Source: Oscillospiraceae bacterium (GTDB lineage: Bacteria > Bacillota_A > Clostridia > Oscillospirales > WRJC01). From it: 9,843 bases of DNA. How positions within the stretch are numbered: the stretch's first letter is position 1; every line of letters starts with the position of its first letter. The position numbers and the translations under genes are program-made. The DNA lies in contig WQXD01000121.1 in assembly GCA_009785015.1 (NCBI GenBank), positions 1-9,843 of the forward strand. Direction: 5' to 3'. The notes beneath the pieces were generated by a model. The model made no database searches and had not been told where the DNA came from. It saw only the letters and a list, made by a program, of their open reading frames with translations. Positions 142-7,400 of this stretch are shown one piece after another.

Positions 142-1650
142 ATGAAAAAAATTATACCTCTTTTGCTTTTTTTGGCTGTCGCGTTTTGTTTCGGCTGCCA
201 AAGCGGCGAAAAAACGGCCGAAAATATTAAACCGGAGCTGCCGGAAGGGGATGACGCCGGTTTTGCCGAAGAAAACGCCGAAAACGACATATACAACATG
301 AAAAAAAGGGAGAGCATAAAGGACAATCTCCCCGAAACGGATTTCGGCGGCGGCGTGTTCAATATCCTGCAGCGCACCGAATGGAATTATGAATTTTTGG
401 CGGAATCCGAAAACGGCGATGTGGTAAACGACGCGGTGTACAAACGAAACCTCACCGTCGAGGAGAGGTTCAACGCCAAATTAAACTCCGTCGACGTCAT
501 GGGCGGCTGGAACGAACAGGAGATTTATCTGAAAAAAGTGCGCAACAGCGTGGCGGCGGGAGACGACGAGTTTCAGCTGCTGTCCGGCTATGCGGCGTAC
601 ATGCCGAAACTTCAGACGGGCGGGTATCTCATAAACCTCCACGCATTGCCCCATGTCGATTTTGACAAAGCCTGGTGGAGCGCGGACCTGAAGGAAAATT
701 TCACCATCAACGGGAGGATGTTTTTCGCGACGGGAGACATTTCGCTCTCTTTATGGGAAGATATCCTCGCCGTATATTTCAACAAGCAGATGATAGCCGA
801 TTATGAGATCGAAAATCCCTACGACCTCGTGCGTTCGGGAAAATGGACCATAGACAAGTTAAACGAGATATGCAAAAATGTGTACAAGGACGTGGACGGG
901 GACGGAAAGCCGTCGGAAAAAAGCGATATATTCGGTTACGCCACAGACACCACGAATTACGTCGACGGATTCTTCGGAGCCTTTGACTGCCCCGTGATAA
1001 AAAAAGACGCTGACGGCGTCCCGTATCACGCCCAGAATATCCAGAAAATGGCCGATATCGTCGATACGTTGTATGCGTTTTTGTGGGAAAGCCCGGGTGT
1101 TTACGCGAATCCGGTTTCGGATCCCGGACCCCGAAATTTATACAGATATATCTTTGAAGAGGGCCGGGCGATGTTTTTGCCGGAACTTCTGGGGAATGCG
1201 CAGGCGCTGCGGAGCATGGACACCGATTTCGGCATAATACCGTACCCGAAGTGGGACGAAGCGCAAAAAAATTATCTGACCACGTCCGTGGCGTATTTTT
1301 CCATGTTCTGCGTGCCGGCGACTGTCCAAAATCTGGATATGACCGGGATCCTGACCGAGGCGCTGTGCGCGGAAAGCTACAAAAAGGTGATTCCGGCCTT
1401 TTATGAAATAGCCCTGAAATCCAAATATTCGAGGGACGACGAATCGGCTGAAATGATAGACATAATCAGAAGCGGGCTCACGTTCGACTTCGGGAAGGTA
1501 TATGTCACGGAACTCGCGTACTCGATGAATATCCTGAGGGATCTGATGTCCGCGAAAAAAAACAATTTCACTTCCACGTTCGAAAAGGGCGAACGCTCGT
1601 ACAATTCCGCTCTGGCAAAACTGCTTGCCACTTTTGATACTGATATATAG
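142..1650 (+). CDS. Extracellular solute-binding lipoprotein (carbohydrate ABC transporter, family 1-like)
   Basis: This is probably the extracytoplasmic substrate-binding subunit of a carbohydrate ABC importer, anchored by lipid to the outer face of the membrane. The 502-residue product has a charged start, a hydrophobic stretch at residues 4-18 and Cys19 preceded by Gly. The lipobox is irregular, with Cys and Phe at -3 and -2. An acidic linker covers roughly 20-68. The binding-protein fold starts near 70 and includes GDVVNDAVYKRN (92-103) and TVEERF (105-110), which recur in its paralogue at 4293-5786. An EF-hand-like loop DVDGDG follows at 250-255. The ATG has AAAGGAG at 125-131, 10 nt upstream. 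It is first in an operon with the reductase 16 bp downstream. The substrate is unknown and no permease lies nearby. The family call is firm; the sugar class is inferred. Confidence 0.85.
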   Translation: MKKIIPLLLFLAVAFCFGCQSGEKTAENIKPELPEGDDAGFAEENAENDIYNMKKRESIKDNLPETDFGGGVFNILQRTEWNYEFLAESENGDVVNDAVYKRNLTVEERFNAKLNSVDVMGGWNEQEIYLKKVRNSVAAGDDEFQLLSGYAAYMPKLQTGGYLINLHALPHVDFDKAWWSADLKENFTINGRMFFATGDISLSLWEDILAVYFNKQMIADYEIENPYDLVRSGKWTIDKLNEICKNVYKDVDGDGKPSEKSDIFGYATDTTNYVDGFFGAFDCPVIKKDADGVPYHAQNIQKMADIVDTLYAFLWESPGVYANPVSDPGPRNLYRYIFEEGRAMFLPELLGNAQALRSMDTDFGIIPYPKWDEAQKNYLTTSVAYFSMFCVPATVQNLDMTGILTEALCAESYKKVIPAFYEIALKSKYSRDDESAEMIDIIRSGLTFDFGKVYVTELAYSMNILRDLMSAKKNNFTSTFEKGERSYNSALAKLLATFDTDI

Positions 1651-1666
1651 GGAGGACAAAAAATTT

Positions 1667-3316
1667 ATGAACAGGATTATCATAGTCGGCGGGGTCGCCG
1701 GAGGGGCTTCGTCCGCGGCGCGTCTGCGCAGATTGGATGAAAGGGCCAAGATCATCATGTTTGAGAGGGGCGAACATATTTCGTTTGCCAACTGCGGATT
1801 GCCGTATTATATCGGGGGCGCTATAGAAAACCGCGAGGATTTGATTCTTTGGAATCCGGAAAGTTTTCGCCGGCGTTTTGATATCGACGTGAGGATTCGG
1901 ACCGAAGTATTGTCAATTGACCCGAAGGCAAAAACGGCGCGGGCAAAAAACCTGCTCACCGGCGAAATTTATTTTGAAACCTACGACAAGCTCATACTGT
2001 CGCCCGGAGGCGTTCCGATAAAAACACCGATAGCGGGCAGCGAATCGGAGGGCGTGTTTACCCTGAAAAATATCGCCGACGCCGACCGCGTCAAAGAGTA
2101 CATACAAAAAAAGCGCCCGCAAAGCGCGGCCGTGATCGGGGGCGGTTTTATCGGAATCGAAATGGCCGAAAATCTGAGGGAAGCAAAAATGGAGGTGAGC
2201 ATCGTCGAATTTTCGGATCAGGTGCTCGCGCCTTTGGATATCGACATGGCCTGCGACGTGCACCGTCATCTGCGAAAAAACGGCGTTTCGCTGTATCTGA
2301 AAAACAAAGTGCGGGAAATCAAAGCGCAAAACGGCCGTTTGAGCGTCGAGCTGCAAAACGGGGCGATAGAAGCCGATATGGCGATTCTCGCCGTCGGAGT
2401 CACCGCCGACAGCCGGCTGGCGAAAGAGGCCGGATTGGAGCTGAATGCAAAAGGCGGCATTGTGGTCGACAAGCATATGCGCACCTCGGATCCGGATATA
2501 TACGCGGTGGGCGACGCGGCGGAAACCGCCGATTTCGTCACGGGGCAAGCCGCGATGATTCCGCTCGCCGGCCCCGCGAACAAGCAGGCGCGCATAGCCG
2601 CGGACAACATCTGCGGCATAGCGTCCGAGTATGCGGGCACGCAGGGCTCCGCCGTCGTGAAAGTGTTCGATATGACGGCGGCCTCCACCGGGATAAACGA
2701 AAAGACCGCGAAACGGCTCGGCATGGACTACGACAAGGTATTTTTGTGGCTGCCGGGCCACGCGGGCTATTACCCCGGCTCGCGGCCCATGTCGATGAAG
2801 CTGATTTTTGAAAAAGACGGCGGAAGAATCCTGGGGGCGCAGCTTGTCGGATTCGAGGGCGCGGACAAACGCTGCGACGTGCTGGCTGTGGCGGTGCGCG
2901 CGAAAATGACGGCCCATGAGCTGACCCGGCTTGAACTCTGCTACGCGCCGCCGTATTCGTCCGCCAAAGACCCCGTGAACATGGCGGGATACGCGATTGA
3001 AAATATACTGACCGGCAAAGTGAAAAATTTCCACTGGCACGACGCGGACTCGCTGCCCCGCGACGGCAGCGCAAATTTGCTCGATGTGCGGACCCCGCCG
3101 GAAACCGCACGGGGGAAAATAGAGGGATTTATGAACATCCCATTGGACGACCTGCGCGGAAGGCTCGGGGAATTAGACAAATCCAAGCCCGTGTATGTCC
3201 ATTGCCAGAGCGGAATGCGCAGTTACCTCGCCGTCCGGATACTGGCGCAAAACGGGTTTGACGCGTACAATCTGAGCGGCGGGTACAGGCTGTACAGCGC
3301 GGTCAAAAATCAATAA
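1667..3316 (+). CDS. cdr: CoA-disulfide / persulfide reductase with C-terminal rhodanese domain
   Basis: This cytoplasmic FAD enzyme of the pyridine nucleotide-disulfide oxidoreductase superfamily should use NAD(P)H to reduce CoA disulfide, CoA persulfide or polysulfide. Residues 4-19 hold the FAD dinucleotide-binding motif (GGVAGGASSAAR from 8). The single redox Cys43 lies in SFANCGLPYY, the CoA-disulfide reductase signature. A second nucleotide-binding motif GGGFIG is at 158-163, and the FAD motif YAVGDAAE is at 279-286. YAPPYSSAKDPVNMAG at 426-441 is the conserved dimer segment. Residues 456-546 form a rhodanese domain with active-site loop HCQSGMRS and Cys513. At 549 residues it fits the fused CoADR-rhodanese form. 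The start at 1667 is chosen for GGGAGG at 1650-1655, 11 nt away; an in-frame ATG at 1625 overlaps the upstream gene and has no such site. Whether CoA disulfide or persulfide is the true substrate cannot be read from sequence. Confidence 0.9.
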   Translation: MNRIIIVGGVAGGASSAARLRRLDERAKIIMFERGEHISFANCGLPYYIGGAIENREDLILWNPESFRRRFDIDVRIRTEVLSIDPKAKTARAKNLLTGEIYFETYDKLILSPGGVPIKTPIAGSESEGVFTLKNIADADRVKEYIQKKRPQSAAVIGGGFIGIEMAENLREAKMEVSIVEFSDQVLAPLDIDMACDVHRHLRKNGVSLYLKNKVREIKAQNGRLSVELQNGAIEADMAILAVGVTADSRLAKEAGLELNAKGGIVVDKHMRTSDPDIYAVGDAAETADFVTGQAAMIPLAGPANKQARIAADNICGIASEYAGTQGSAVVKVFDMTAASTGINEKTAKRLGMDYDKVFLWLPGHAGYYPGSRPMSMKLIFEKDGGRILGAQLVGFEGADKRCDVLAVAVRAKMTAHELTRLELCYAPPYSSAKDPVNMAGYAIENILTGKVKNFHWHDADSLPRDGSANLLDVRTPPETARGKIEGFMNIPLDDLRGRLGELDKSKPVYVHCQSGMRSYLAVRILAQNGFDAYNLSGGYRLYSAVKNQ

Positions 3317-3326
3317 ATGCCAAAAA

Positions 3327-4265
3327 TCACCTTATATCCCGCAAGGCCCTCAATACATTCATCTGGTCTTCGTCTATATGGCCGTCGCGGAACATGCACA
3401 CATCCACCGTCACCACCCCGCCGCGCCCGTTGACCTTCGTTATATAATCGCGCATATACGCTCCCGTGTATTTGGTGCCGGGCTGGCACCAGCCGTTGTA
3501 TATGTTGCCGTCCGGCGGGACGCCCAAAAACGACAGCGTGTGCCACTGCGCGCCGCCGATGAAGCGGCTGTCCGGCAAATCCGTGAAGTCGTTCATTTCG
3601 CCCGTCGTGAAATCGTCGCTTACGCTGTAAGCGGAAACTCTCTTCTCCACGCCGAGGTTCAGGGCGACGAGCGCGTCACGGTTTCCCGCCCGCAGCGCGT
3701 CGGCCATGATTTTGAGCTTTTCTTCATCATAGCCGATGAACGCGTAACAGCCGTCCGCCCACCAGCCCCTGACTTTCGCGCCGTATTTTTTGCTGTATTC
3801 CTCTACGACCCCGGCCCACTTCGAAACGAACTCCGCGGACACCTTGTCGTTTTGGCTCACATAGCCGAACGACCCGCCCGCCTGCGGGTCGTCGAGCGGG
3901 CCGTCGCCCGTGAAGTACAGCAGCAAGTCGATGCCGCGCTTATTCAAGGCCGAATAGATATCTTCGATGAAATCGCGTTTCGCGCAGGCTTCGCCGGGCT
4001 TGTACCCCGTGATCCGGTCGTAGGTCGTGTTCGGGGCGAGCATATATTTGCTCCTTTGCATGATTGTCAAACACAGGTATCCCGCATTTACTTCCGCTAT
4101 TTGCGAAGCGATGAAGTCGGCGTCAAGCGAATCTATATATCCGCTCCAGTCCGTTTTGCCTTTTCCCATATTAGCGGCTCTGCCGGGGTTGTTTTGCACG
4201 CCGTCCAACAGATGGATGAACATGCCCCATTTTTTGTCGTGAAACCAATCTGTCTTATGTGCCAT
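3327..4265 (-). CDS. GH29-like (alpha-L-fucosidase-like) TIM-barrel hydrolase, cytoplasmic
   Basis: This 312-residue protein resembles the catalytic domain of GH29 alpha-L-fucosidases. It opens with WFHDKKWGMFIH (7-18), matching the family N-terminus WF-DAKFGIFIHW. It carries VRGWWADGCY (165-174), which corresponds to the W-x-D-G segment holding the GH29 nucleophile, making Asp171 the candidate nucleophile. FTTGEMNDF (219-227) and GGAQWHTLSFLG (237-248) may add active-site residues. It has no signal peptide and none of the C-terminal beta domain found in many GH29 enzymes, so it should act inside the cell on an imported compound. The start has GGAGG (4276-4280 on the opposite strand), 10 nt upstream. 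It lies 27 bp after the solute-binding lipoprotein gene and is probably co-transcribed with it. Fucose specificity is not shown; the family assignment is moderate and the substrate unknown. Confidence 0.6.
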   Translation of the reverse strand: MAHKTDWFHDKKWGMFIHLLDGVQNNPGRAANMGKGKTDWSGYIDSLDADFIASQIAEVNAGYLCLTIMQRSKYMLAPNTTYDRITGYKPGEACAKRDFIEDIYSALNKRGIDLLLYFTGDGPLDDPQAGGSFGYVSQNDKVSAEFVSKWAGVVEEYSKKYGAKVRGWWADGCYAFIGYDEEKLKIMADALRAGNRDALVALNLGVEKRVSAYSVSDDFTTGEMNDFTDLPDSRFIGGAQWHTLSFLGVPPDGNIYNGWCQPGTKYTGAYMRDYITKVNGRGGVVTVDVCMFRDGHIDEDQMNVLRALRDIR

Positions 4266-4292: not shown

Positions 4293-5786
4293 CTATAGTT
4301 CTTTATACGCGTTTATCAGTTTTTCCAAAGCTTTTTCATATGACGCCTCTTTTTTTTCATAAGCGGAGACAAAATCCCGGTTCTTTTTTTCGACCAGTTC
4401 CCGGAGCAGAAAATGCACTCCGTTTATACTGATTGTGTTCACATACCCGAAATCGAAGTATATTCCGTCGTGAATTATATCGAGCATTTTAGACGTCACG
4501 TCGTCGCGCGAATATTTGATTTTGAGGGCCGTTTCATAATAGGTCGGGGTCAAATACCTGTAGCTTTCAGCCGCCAGGGCTTCAGTGACGGCGCCGACAA
4601 AATCAAGCCTGTCATTGCTTACGGGAATACAGAAAAGAGAAAAGCCGTCCTGGGTAAGCCCCAAATATTTTTCCTGGGATTCATCGTATTTGGGCGAGGG
4701 GAGTATTCCGAAATCATCCTGCATATCCCTGAGATTTTCGGCGAATTCCAAATATCCGATATTGAACAGGGCTTCCCCTCTTTTAAACAGTTCGCGAGAA
4801 GGGCGCTCGCCCGATTCGGGAATACAATACGCGCCCTGATTTTCATGGAACAGCGCGATTATTTTGCTCAGCCTTTCGATGGTTCCGGGCGAATTTATTG
4901 TGAGGGACGGATAACCGTCGCTGCCTTTCGGCGCCAGCGACTGGCCCATCGCGACAAACATCTGGTCGGTAAAATTTCCCGGTTCCACACACAGGCCAAA
5001 CGTATCCCCGATATTTTTTTCGTTGTCGCCGTTTGTGTCCCTGTATACGTTTTTGGTTATTTCATAAAGCCGGTCGTAAGTCCATTTATTGTCCAATACC
5101 GTCTGGTACAAATCTTCTATTCCGTAATCGCTCTGCAATTTTTTGTTGAAATAGAAAACCATCATACTGCCTATCATTGTCTGGCTCAAATCGCCCGTCA
5201 TAAAATAGAGCTTGCCGTCGATAGTCAGTTCATCTTCGAGCTTCTGTATCCACCACGGGGCGCCGCTGTCTATATACGGCACGTTTTTGTTCCAGTTTAC
5301 AAAAATTCCGTCGGCGGCGAGCGGAGCCACGGCCACCGAATACCCCGCGACCAAATTATGGGTATTGTCCCCCGCGTTGACGCTGTTTTTTATGGTGTTG
5401 TTAAAACTCGCCTCGTTTCCCCATATACCGGGGATTTTGACGACGTCTATAGTTATGTCAAATCTTTCCTCGACGGTTCTGCTCCTTTGGTAAATGGCGT
5501 CGTTTACAATATCTCCGGTTTCCTCCTCGACCCCCATCTCCGTGCCGAATATTATCTCGCTCCTCGACAGTATGGTGAAAGTATCTCCGGCAAATTTCAG
5601 ATCCGGCGGCACGCCGTCCGGAGTATTTTCCCTTTTGATTTCGGTCGTTTCCTCCAAAACCGCTTCGCCGAAAGTATCATCCGTACTTTTGGCGTCGCCG
5701 TCGATTTTGGCGCGGGTACAGCCCGCCCCCATTCCCAAAAGTATTCCCGCAGATAAAAATACCGCAATTATCCGTTTGATAAACAT
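4293..5786 (-). CDS. Extracellular solute-binding lipoprotein (carbohydrate ABC transporter), paralogue of the first
   Basis: This 497-residue lipoprotein is presumably the substrate-binding part of an ABC sugar importer. It has a hydrophobic signal at 5-20 and GMGAGC with lipid-modified Cys23, a better lipobox than its paralogue at 142-1650. A Thr/Glu-rich linker (24-65) precedes the binding domain. The two proteins align along their full length. Shared blocks include GD(I/V)VNDA(I/V)Y, TVEERF, PWW/AWW at 177-179, a Trp-Thr segment before the EF-hand-like loop, and a C-terminal SYEKALEKL/SYNSALAKL helix. The loop DTNGDNEKNIGD (250-261) keeps the 12-residue calcium-loop spacing better than its paralogue. 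AAGGAGA (5795-5800 on the opposite strand) lies 8 nt before the ATG. It is first in an operon with the GH29-like gene, which suggests both handle the same glycan. No permease is in the window. Confidence 0.87.
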   Translation of the reverse strand: MFIKRIIAVFLSAGILLGMGAGCTRAKIDGDAKSTDDTFGEAVLEETTEIKRENTPDGVPPDLKFAGDTFTILSRSEIIFGTEMGVEEETGDIVNDAIYQRSRTVEERFDITIDVVKIPGIWGNEASFNNTIKNSVNAGDNTHNLVAGYSVAVAPLAADGIFVNWNKNVPYIDSGAPWWIQKLEDELTIDGKLYFMTGDLSQTMIGSMMVFYFNKKLQSDYGIEDLYQTVLDNKWTYDRLYEITKNVYRDTNGDNEKNIGDTFGLCVEPGNFTDQMFVAMGQSLAPKGSDGYPSLTINSPGTIERLSKIIALFHENQGAYCIPESGERPSRELFKRGEALFNIGYLEFAENLRDMQDDFGILPSPKYDESQEKYLGLTQDGFSLFCIPVSNDRLDFVGAVTEALAAESYRYLTPTYYETALKIKYSRDDVTSKMLDIIHDGIYFDFGYVNTISINGVHFLLRELVEKKNRDFVSAYEKKEASYEKALEKLINAYKEL

Positions 5787-5880: not shown

Positions 5881-5909
5881 TTGTATTTTTCAAAAATTTA
5901 TGATATAAT
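5881..5909 (+). promoter_or_regulatory. Extended -10 promoter of aspS
   Basis: TTGTAT (5881-5886), a 17-bp spacer and a perfect TATAAT (5904-5909) are preceded by TGA, the extended -10. Transcription should start near 5916, so the leader before the synthetase ATG at 6057 is about 140 nt, unusually long compared with the other genes here. A partial dyad, TATGA (5899-5903) with TCATA (5914-5918), flanks the -10 box. Confidence 0.7.
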
Positions 5910-5959
5910 CGTGTCATACAGGGCAAGAAGCGAAACTTTTAAAGAAAGGATGTGATGAA

Positions 5960-6175
5960 ATGCGGCATACAGATTATGCCGGAATAGATGGTTTCCGTAA
6001 TTTTATCGGCTGTAACCCAAACAAAACAAATTCTAAATTACGGAGGTTGTCAAATTATGTCCAATACTTTAAATATTTTAAATATTTCTGCCCAAGTCTC
6101 AAATTCATATGCCCAAGCAGAGCGGCTGCATACCCGTATCGGGCAGGAGGCGCAAGTCCGCGGCATAATCTATAA
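5960..6175 (+). CDS. Possible leader ORF upstream of and overlapping aspS
   Basis: This 71-codon ORF has its own site AAAGGA at 5945-5950, 9 nt before the ATG. Its first 32 codons lie in the aspS leader. Residues 14-24 hold four Asn codons: AAT at 5999, AAC at 6014, AAC at 6020 and AAT at 6029; a fifth comes at residue 32. Translation would run through both arms of the helix that hides the aspS ribosome binding site. The part after 6057 is out of frame with aspS and may be open only by chance. No match to a known protein is recognised. It may be a regulatory leader peptide rather than a functional product. Confidence 0.35.
   Translation: MRHTDYAGIDGFRNFIGCNPNKTNSKLRRLSNYVQYFKYFKYFCPSLKFICPSRAAAYPYRAGGASPRHNL
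5963..5981 (+). promoter_or_regulatory. Leader hairpin just inside the upstream ORF
   Basis: CGGCATA (5963-5969) and TATGCCG (5975-5981) form a perfect 7-bp stem with a 5-nt loop, CAGAT. It begins at the second codon of the leader ORF. No T-run follows, so it is not a terminator. It may be part of the folded leader, and GCCG at 5978-5981 could also pair with CGGC at 6007-6010. Confidence 0.45.
5991..6047 (+). promoter_or_regulatory. Shine-Dalgarno-sequestering helix of aspS
   Basis: TCCGTAATTT (5994-6003) is the exact reverse complement of AAATTACGGA (6035-6044), giving ten Watson-Crick pairs. G-U pairs 5993/6045, 5992/6046 and 5991/6047 can extend it. The right arm contains the whole GGAGG (6042-6046) of aspS. 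The 31-nt loop is A/C-rich and looks unstructured. While this helix is intact, initiation at 6057 should be poor; a ribosome on the leader ORF would open it. No T-box sequence was seen. Confidence 0.6.
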
Positions 6176-7400
6176 AATACGGGAAATGTCGGGTTTTGCC
6201 TTTGTCGTTTTGCAAACCGGAAAAACTTTTTTGCAATGCGTTTACTCCGGACAATATTCACAGTTCGCATTATCCGAGCTCCGCGAAAACATGAGCGTCG
6301 TATTTGCCGGGAAGGTGATCGGCGAAGAACGGAGCCGCACCGGCGTCGAACTCGAAATATGGTCGTATAAATGTCTGGCCGCCCCCCTCTGCGCGCCGCC
6401 GGTCGTGATCAACAACAAAGAAGTCAAAGCCTCGCTCGAGACGCTGCTCGATTACCGGCCTTTGAGCCTGCGAAACGCGAATGAACGCGCGATATTTCGG
6501 ATCCAGGCCGGTATCTGCCGGGCGCTGCGCAGGTTTTTCGACGAAAACAATTTTACCGAAATCCATTCGCCCAAAATCGTCTTCGGCGGGGCGGAGGGCG
6601 GCTCGAATATTTTTCGCCTCGAATATTTCGGGCGCGAAGCCTACCTGACCCAGAGCCCGCAATTCTATAAACAGATCATGGTGGGCGTGTTTGAGCGCGT
6701 ATACGAGATTGCCCCGGTTTTCAGGGCGGAAAAGCACGACACGTCGCGGCATGTAAACGAATACACCAGCGTGGACCTCGAAATGGGGTTTATCGAAAGT
6801 TTTTATGAGCTCATGAGCTTGGAAACAAAAATGCTGTCGGAAACCATGGATTTTCTGCGCGAACATTATCCGGAGGAAATCGCGCTGCTGAAAGCCGAAA
6901 TACCAATAATCACCCAAATCCCGGCCGTGGCTTTTTCGGAGGCCAAAAACATGATCGCAAAAGTCACGGGCCGCCAAACCGAAGACTTCGGGGATTTCGA
7001 CCCGGAGGAAGAAAAAACGCTCTCGGAAATCATAAAAAAGCAGACCGGCTGCGATTTTGTGTTCGTGACGCATTACAAATCCTCAAAGCGCCCCTTTTAC
7101 GCCATGGATTCAGAACAAGACCCGGAAGTGACCGAGAGCTTCGATTTGCTGTTCCGCGGAATGGAAATCACCACGGGCGGCCAGCGCATCCATGATTACG
7201 GGGAACAGGTAAAAAAAATGAAATCCCGGGGAATGGATACGGCGGCGTTTTCAAGTTATTTGATGGCGCACAAGCACGGGCTGCCTCCGCACGGGGGGCT
7301 GGGGCTGGGATTGGAGAGGCTGACTGCCAAACTTTTAAATTTTCAAAATATCCGCCGCGCCGCCATGTTTCCCAGGGACATCGCCAGGCTGGAACCGTGA
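6057..7400 (+). CDS. aspS: Archaeal-type aspartyl-tRNA synthetase (aspartate--tRNA(Asn) ligase)
   Basis: This class IIb synthetase charges aspartate to tRNA-Asp and, in non-discriminating forms, also to tRNA-Asn, where the GatCAB amidotransferase makes Asn-tRNA. The 447 residues begin with an OB-fold anticodon-binding domain (about 17-105). The catalytic domain has motif 1 near 159-174, LTQSPQFYKQ (197-206), motif 2 with FRAEKHDTSRH (222-232), EITTGGQRIHDY (370-381) and motif 3 GGLGLGLERL (413-422, Arg421). Its length and motifs fit the archaeal-type enzyme, not the roughly 590-residue bacterial AspRS with its GAD insertion. The QSPQ and GGQRIHDY segments argue against AsnRS. The start at 6057 is chosen for GGAGG at 6042-6046, 10 nt away; an in-frame ATG at 5988 lacks a site. 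No gatCAB genes are in the window. Non-discrimination is inferred from family, not seen. Confidence 0.88.
   Translation: MSNTLNILNISAQVSNSYAQAERLHTRIGQEAQVRGIIYKIREMSGFAFVVLQTGKTFLQCVYSGQYSQFALSELRENMSVVFAGKVIGEERSRTGVELEIWSYKCLAAPLCAPPVVINNKEVKASLETLLDYRPLSLRNANERAIFRIQAGICRALRRFFDENNFTEIHSPKIVFGGAEGGSNIFRLEYFGREAYLTQSPQFYKQIMVGVFERVYEIAPVFRAEKHDTSRHVNEYTSVDLEMGFIESFYELMSLETKMLSETMDFLREHYPEEIALLKAEIPIITQIPAVAFSEAKNMIAKVTGRQTEDFGDFDPEEEKTLSEIIKKQTGCDFVFVTHYKSSKRPFYAMDSEQDPEVTESFDLLFRGMEITTGGQRIHDYGEQVKKMKSRGMDTAAFSSYLMAHKHGLPPHGGLGLGLERLTAKLLNFQNIRRAAMFPRDIARLEP

Follow-up and report, generated by a model that had tools for sequence, protein, structure and literature searches.

Our analysis suggests that the leader open reading frame (ORF) ahead of aspS in the window (the whole stretch of 9,843 nucleotides analysed here) is probably a translational attenuator that senses the charging of tRNA-Asp, in which a ribosome stalled at the tenth leader codon, Asp10, would free the gene of a spare aspartyl-tRNA synthetase (AspRS). 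We infer that the leader is translated, that ribosomes stall on it when Asp is short and that aspS is thereby induced. A strong Shine-Dalgarno (SD) sequence would load ribosomes on the leader ORF. When Asp-tRNA is ample, the ribosome would clear Asp5 and Asp10, and a helix (helix 2) would re-form behind it, leaving the aspS SD mostly hidden. When Asp-tRNA is scarce, the ribosome would wait with Asp10 in the A site and cover the first 13 nt (5987-5999) of the left arm of helix 2; with this arm masked, GGAGG at 6042-6046 would become free and aspS would be translated. The aspS product would be an auxiliary enzyme, with tRNA-Asp as its probable specific substrate, made in addition to a housekeeping AspRS of the bacterial type. 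Most relatives have, farther upstream, a first leader with an Asp run and a terminator-like hairpin, which would add an apparent stage of transcription attenuation; the window does not have this stage.

The leader ORF and the helix at the aspS start

The leader ORF (5960..6175, forward strand) opens with the ATG at 5960 and has 71 codons; it is free of stops up to aspS and, in a different frame, extends over the aspS start (6057). Its conserved part consists of codons 1-10, MRHTDYAGID. Both Asp codons in this part are GAT on the forward strand, codon 5 at 5972..5974 and codon 10, the proposed stall codon, at 5987..5989, with whose three nucleotides the left arm of helix 2 begins. The leader has its own strong SD, GAAAGGATGTGAT (5944..5956, forward strand), which we take to be approximately the full complement of the 16S tail; the consensus across 28 aligned leaders is GAAAGGAGGTGAT. 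The original prediction had placed the ORF start, its SD and four in-frame Asn codons (5999, 6014, 6020 and 6029) correctly. A rival ORF of ten codons from the ATG at 5955 was rejected because the 28-leader alignment keeps only the 5960 start. Since it carries no stop before aspS, the leader of the window may allow a higher basal level of expression.

Reading by eye, we found a putative promoter with an extended -10 element, TGATATAAT, at 5901..5909 of the forward strand, which is absent from the sites listed by a scan of the sequence. From this element a transcript start at ~5916 is likely. Such a start would lie ~44 nt before the leader ORF, too close for the upstream Asp leader seen in relatives to fit in.

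The core of helix 2 is a perfect 10-bp pairing of TCCGTAATTT (5994-6003) with AAATTACGGA (6035-6044). After folding, the helix spans 17 pairs including G-U, with its left arm at 5987..6003 and its right arm at 6035..6051, both on the forward strand, and GGAGG at 6042-6046, the SD of aspS, is buried in the right arm. Sequence and folding together thus bear out the helix that had been predicted to extend through G-U pairs and to bury this SD. The hallmark of erm- and cat-type attenuators, a helix that hides the SD and whose left arm lies within the leader ORF, was found in the window and at other loci too.

Taken by folding energy alone, the signal in the window is modest, as 2 of 200 shuffles were as good for 5915-6075 and 9 of 200 for 5985-6062. 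The pairing between the aspS start region and the nucleotides that follow Asp10 gives a modest signal as well, equalled by 15 of 300 shuffles. The sequence of helix 2 is not conserved among the relatives. Judged by eye, in about half of 23 folded loci the aspS SD or start is paired to a stretch whose first nucleotide is 0-8 nt away from where the Asp10 codon starts. The post-Asp10 pairing gives a Fisher value of 2.4e-5 over these 23 loci, counted as independent though they are related, and it reaches p <= 0.05 individually in five of them. On comparative evidence, the arrangement of leader and helix in the window is more than chance.

We placed a model ribosome on the leader so that a chosen codon occupied the A site, using an assumed footprint and equilibrium folding, and computed the cost of unfolding the aspS start region. 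With Asp10 in the A site, the modelled ribosome covers the left arm up to 5999. We scored 23 of the 28 loci, leaving out five with a long spacer (offset >135 nt); several aspS starts were picked by SD strength, and that of L105 by hand. Moving the ribosome from codon 5 to codon 10 lowered the opening cost by a mean of 3.60 kcal/mol over the 23 loci, against 0.66 kcal/mol for shuffled spacers, where the largest of 40 shuffled sets gave 1.18. The drop exceeds 2 kcal/mol in 13 of the 23 loci (57%, against 16% of shuffles). In the window the cost falls from 10.9 to 5.6 kcal/mol, a change equalled by 0 of 40 and 1 of 200 shuffles. At L183, a locus found later and used as an outside test, it falls from 9.3 to 3.0 (a drop of 6.3 kcal/mol, reached in 2 of 200 shuffles). 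The structural switch expected of leader-peptide attenuation is therefore a calculated one, both for the set and for the window. That a stall near the left arm frees the aspS SD had been proposed for the window; the calculated effect recurs in relatives whose helix sequences differ, but not in all of them, as 10 of the 23 loci have no such drop.

Other types of control were also looked for. The T-box model of Rfam (RF00230) has no match in the window up to E = 1, and no T-box consensus occurs within 700 nt upstream of aspS, so that the absence of a T-box noted earlier is upheld. The window has one terminator-like site, at 5980-5997, where shuffles give 0.4. A trp-type order, with an intrinsic terminator between leader and gene, was not found in the window.

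Leader relatives and the Asp-run leader upstream

Relatives of the leader were collected in two ways. A scan of genome contigs, from which the best 80 of 496 aspS loci were kept, found the 5960-type leader in the 8 nearest loci (52-71% identity) and no match to the pattern in the 72 others. A covariance model of the 55-nt leader core, trained on 9 leaders, was run on 10 individual genomes and on samples of larger groups. It matched 7 of 295 genomes in one order and 22 of 397 in one family, where 15 of 24 matches are leader-like and 9 precede other genes. It also matched 5 of 391 genomes in one class (three decayed), and in three further samples 5 of 58 genomes (four decayed), 3 of 27 (one without aspS nearby) and 2 of 21 (both known already). 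No exact-pattern copies of the leader were found in viral contigs.

Our comparison set holds the 28 leaders, the window included, that have aspS downstream. Left out were a degraded copy (L091), a fragment without aspS (L114), the decayed leaders L129-L132 and L134, which has no aspS. L106 is counted among the 28 though its aspS is only 34% identical, and it is absent from the tree described below. The SD, the start codon (ATG in 26, GTG in 2) and the frame of codons 1-10 are kept in all 28 leaders. Codon 5 is Asp in 28 of 28 (GAC 19, GAT 9) and so is codon 10 (GAT 21, GAC 7), and a Glu codon occurs at neither. These two Asp are the sole invariant residues within codons 1-10, the remaining codons being variable (e.g. 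His3 is replaced by Gln in five leaders). The model that found the leaders was trained on 9 of the 28 and hence has a built-in bias toward Asp5 and Asp10; the weakest leaders (E ~3e-7) lie far from this training set. The leader has 12-28 codons in 22 of the 28 loci, compared with 71 in the window.

Codons 2-7 of the leader form a hairpin (hairpin 1; 5964-5968 with 5976-5980, forward strand) with the Asp5 codon in its loop. Across the set, 97.9% of 140 cells are paired and 13 cells are changed on both sides. Two-sided changes occur in three of the five pairs. None of 500 shuffles reached the covariation score, nor did any slid version of the alignment. Hairpin 1 is a real RNA helix. It has no part in the proposed stall at Asp10, and we count this against our account.

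A second small ORF with the run Asp-Asp-Asp, often ending in Arg-Asp-Asp-Asp-Arg, lies further upstream at 21 of the 28 loci when searched within 450 nt, whereas such an ORF arose in 5 of 1040 shuffled upstream regions. The window has no Asp-run ORF upstream. At L116 it is present farther upstream, L001, L003, L103 and L106 have upstream ORFs with broken Asp runs, and the upstream region of L005 is interrupted by the end of its contig. Between the Asp-run ORF and the 5960-type leader, a hairpin of at most -13.8 kcal/mol followed by a T run was found in 20 of the 21 loci, a count made without a shuffle control; at L119 the hairpin reaches only -4.2, and at L002, L101, L104 and L133 it was picked long and may not be a true terminator. 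This upstream leader looks like a classic Asp transcription attenuator. Equilibrium folding gave the switch expected of such an attenuator in only 4 of the 21 loci and the opposite in one, and hence no general switch. An M-box or another known riboswitch, guessed at by look upstream of the relatives' leaders, found no support in Rfam.

Some copies of the leader have changed. In L129-L132 (genomes G720-G723) and L175 both leaders are decayed: the upstream ORF ends in LNNGYNI, the 5960-type start has become ATT and Asp10 is lost. These leaders precede an aspS-like gene that is only 26-28% identical; in G720 the gene behind the decayed leader is a second bacterial-type AspRS that follows a T-box motif. 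The Asn in the decayed upstream ORF, at the place of the relatives' Asp, could possibly reflect a switch of specificity. L091 (G004) is a degraded second copy, in which the leader runs directly into a shortened aspS, and the leader of L106 (G276) likewise stands ahead of a distant aspS.

The aspS gene and its clade

The gene behind the leader, aspS (6057..7400, forward strand), encodes an archaeal-type aspartate-tRNA ligase of 447 aa (NF003483, 515.7 bits; cut-off 353). Its neighbours are unrelated to it, namely a divergent gene without a family match and a zinc-dependent dehydrogenase downstream, and no gatCAB was found in the window. Elsewhere in the window, the products of 142-1650 (forward) and 4293-5786 (reverse) are lipoprotein-like and appear by eye to be paralogues; neither Pfam nor NCBIfam gives a match for them at E <= 0.001. 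The gene at 3327-4265 (reverse) encodes an Alpha-L-fucosidase-like protein with a weak Pfam match (30.0 bits against 25.2), and that at 1667-3316 (forward) a CoA-disulfide-reductase-like protein with a C-terminal rhodanese domain, which scores under the NCBIfam equivalog cut-offs.

Archaeal-type aspS genes (E <= 1e-90) occur in 39 of 295 genomes in the order of G001 and in 126 of 397 genomes in the family of G004, 11 of which have two matches. From the latter family 30 aspS loci were listed and the 18 new ones examined. Six of these (54-62% identity) have the Asp-run ORF without a 5960-type leader, and the other 12 (50-54% identity) have T-box motifs. In a tree of 87 proteins, from which L106 and the short L110 were left out, 33 rows with leaders fall within one clade of 34 (support 100/97), and the 34th, L013, has an Asp-run leader. 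The 23 T-box rows fall outside this clade. Except at L172 and L173, the sole two of 18 loci with a T-box at the gathering level of Rfam, the T-box labels, including those of L014, L015, L142, L143, L145, L146, L162 and L164, rest on GGTGGNACCGCG or near variants; L001-L016 gave no such Rfam match. The codon AAC, for Asn, stands at the specifier position, as read by eye, in 14 of the 23 T-box rows. Control by Asn thus appears to belong to a sister group, the archaeal-type AspRS whose genes carry T-box motifs.

Two residues of the anticodon domain bear on the specificity of the enzyme. Tyr39 of the window protein aligns to His of 1n9w, named a non-discriminating AspRS in the PDB listing, and to Trp of 3nel, which we take to be discriminating; Arg94 aligns to Pro of 1n9w and Lys of 3nel. 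Presumably His and Pro at these two positions mark non-discriminating AspRS and set specificity. The window aspS has neither. In the leader clade (n=34) residue 39 is Tyr in 28 rows, His in 4, Cys in 1 and Thr in 1, while it is His in 23 of 23 T-box rows and in 28 of the 30 rows that lack both leader and T-box. Residue 94 is Arg or Lys in 33 of 34 leader-clade rows and Pro in 21 of the 23 T-box rows. Because the His/Pro pair is mostly missing from the clade, Asp-tRNA(Asp) is a likelier product than Asp-tRNA of the Asn route. The residues therefore speak against the earlier assignment of the enzyme to the Asp-tRNA(Asn) route.

A bacterial-type AspRS scored above the cut-off in 16 of 19 genomes tested, with none above it in the other three, and AsnRS scored above its cut-off in 17 of the 19; one of the 19, G720, has a decayed leader only. 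As most of these genomes also carry the bacterial enzyme, the archaeal-type aspS looks like an inducible spare for tRNA-Asp. Judging from its sequence, the aspS of the window is probably such a spare, and we infer a second AspRS in the window's own genome. The acquisition of an additional AspRS is described as rare in bacteria in the available part of one source, which discusses it with GatCAB and the formation of Asn (PMC4206432). Five genomes (L172-L176; G002, G775, G653, G720 and G007) have a second AspRS of bacterial type, preceded by a T-box motif that Rfam matches in L172 and L173 only, and hence some genomes, e.g. G002, have three AspRS genes. In four loci of a sister group without the leader (L009, L010, L011 and L012) a 6S RNA lies upstream of aspS on the opposite strand, and L013 has an Asn- and Ser-rich repeat (2220-2430) near the 5' end of its AspRS gene, ahead of the part that matches other AspRS.

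Alternative explanations, known systems and meaning

The original prediction was that shortage of Asn is sensed, with a ribosome stalled at the Asn codons between 5999 and 6029, near 6014-6022, exposing aspS for the Asn route. Four Asn codons do stand in the window leader, a modelled ribosome at codon 14 also opens the aspS start (4.8 kcal/mol), and AAC is frequent at the putative specifier of the sister T-box group. The alignment of homologues, proposed as a check, kept the ORF start in all 28 leaders but not the Asn codons: Asn occurs within codons 11-25 in only 10 of 28 and is absent from the two nearest relatives, L001 and L002, so that 18 leaders have none after codon 10, while Asp5 and Asp10 are present in 28 of 28. 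Farther upstream, 21 of 28 loci have a leader with Asp-Asp-Asp, and the clade is mostly without the His/Pro pair of the T-box group. Sensing of Asn is hence highly improbable, and the stall is predicted at 5987-5989 instead.

Plain translational coupling, in which any ribosome translating the leader melts the helix and expression is tuned with nothing being sensed, we consider unlikely. The leader overruns the aspS start in five of the 28 loci (the window, L102, L103, L106 and L112; six with the chosen start of L005), and since no stop precedes aspS there, passing ribosomes would also melt helix 2 at those loci. In the ribosome calculations, too, movement along the leader opens the helix. Coupling leaves unexplained, however, why Asp10 stands at the switch position in 28 of 28 leaders, why the codon is always GAY and never one for Glu, and why an Asp-run ORF lies upstream. 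It is quite unlikely, too, that the leader RNA serves chiefly for binding, with hairpin 1, perhaps together with helix 2, as an operator for AspRS or tRNA-Asp. Such an operator would fit the covariation of hairpin 1 inside the ORF and the modelled ribosome at Asp5, in the loop of hairpin 1, which leaves aspS closed. But all 28 leaders retain their SD, start codon and reading frame, and the loop carries a GAY codon and not GUC, the anticodon of tRNA-Asp. The leaders L129-L132, whose Asp10 and start codon have decayed, still show the hairpin, but the gene downstream of them is no aspS of the clade.

An Asp-sensing attenuator would have several known counterparts. In translational attenuators of the ermC and cat type, drug-dependent arrest of the nascent chain in a leader frees a hidden SD. 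The window leader likewise crosses one arm of an SD-hiding helix and a stalled ribosome would free the SD, but the stall is proposed to occur at cognate Asp codons on uncharged tRNA, and no drug is implied. Vecchione and Sello reportedly described in 2010 an auxiliary tryptophanyl-tRNA synthetase of Streptomyces under ribosome-mediated transcriptional attenuation and linked to indolmycin resistance. It resembles our case as a spare synthetase switched by leader codons for its own amino acid, and differs in being actinobacterial, specific for Trp, transcriptional and linked to indolmycin, while no inhibitor link is known here. Saad is said to have reported in 2012 and 2013 T-box control of the Asn-route AspRS and GatCAB in Clostridium acetobutylicum. 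There, too, an extra clostridial AspRS gene is governed by tRNA charging, but its T-box reads tRNA-Asn directly without a leader ORF, whereas the leader here would be translated through Asp codons. In Escherichia coli, the pheST operon with its pheM leader and thrS with its operator are housekeeping synthetase genes, and the thrS enzyme is its own repressor. They share with our case the control of a synthetase operon via leader translation or an mRNA operator, and differ as housekeeping genes for other amino acids.

Many synthetase genes in Firmicutes are under T-box control. For hisS this control is described in the available part of one source, which also reports hisS paralogues of bacilli with His leader peptides and transcription attenuation (Genome Biol 2010, PMC2965389). 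To our knowledge these paralogues and the Streptomyces enzyme are the closest in kind to our case. The hisS paralogues, too, are duplicated Firmicutes synthetase genes in which a leader with cognate codons replaces the T-box; unlike them, the leader here would sense Asp, and a translational stage is present, which in the window is the sole one. A predicted element upstream of aspS in Shewanella is given as a tRNA synthetase leader, with no Asp leader peptide mentioned in the available part of the source (PMC2659441). The literature on leaders and attenuation, searched mostly outside subscription papers, yielded no description of an Asp leader peptide ahead of a clostridial aspS.

Our data suggest a natural pair, a T-box with an Asn-type enzyme and an Asp leader with an Asp-type enzyme, in which the specificity of the enzyme appears to have changed in step with its regulator. 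We speculate, tentatively, that in a clade of Clostridia an AspRS derived from the archaeal-type family, which elsewhere serves the Asn route, has moved from Asn to Asp in its tRNA specificity as well as in its regulator, and that two serial Asp leaders, acting on transcription and then on the ribosome binding site, hold the spare gene off until the housekeeping AspRS fails, e.g. through a natural AspRS inhibitor; the window would have the translational stage only. This clade of synthetases appears to use leader peptides with cognate codons instead of a T-box, at the level of translation and with amino-acid-specific sensing within an erm-like arrangement. The sampled clade has retained the spare gene along with its Asp sensor, and shortage of Asp-tRNA may therefore be a recurrent challenge for these organisms.
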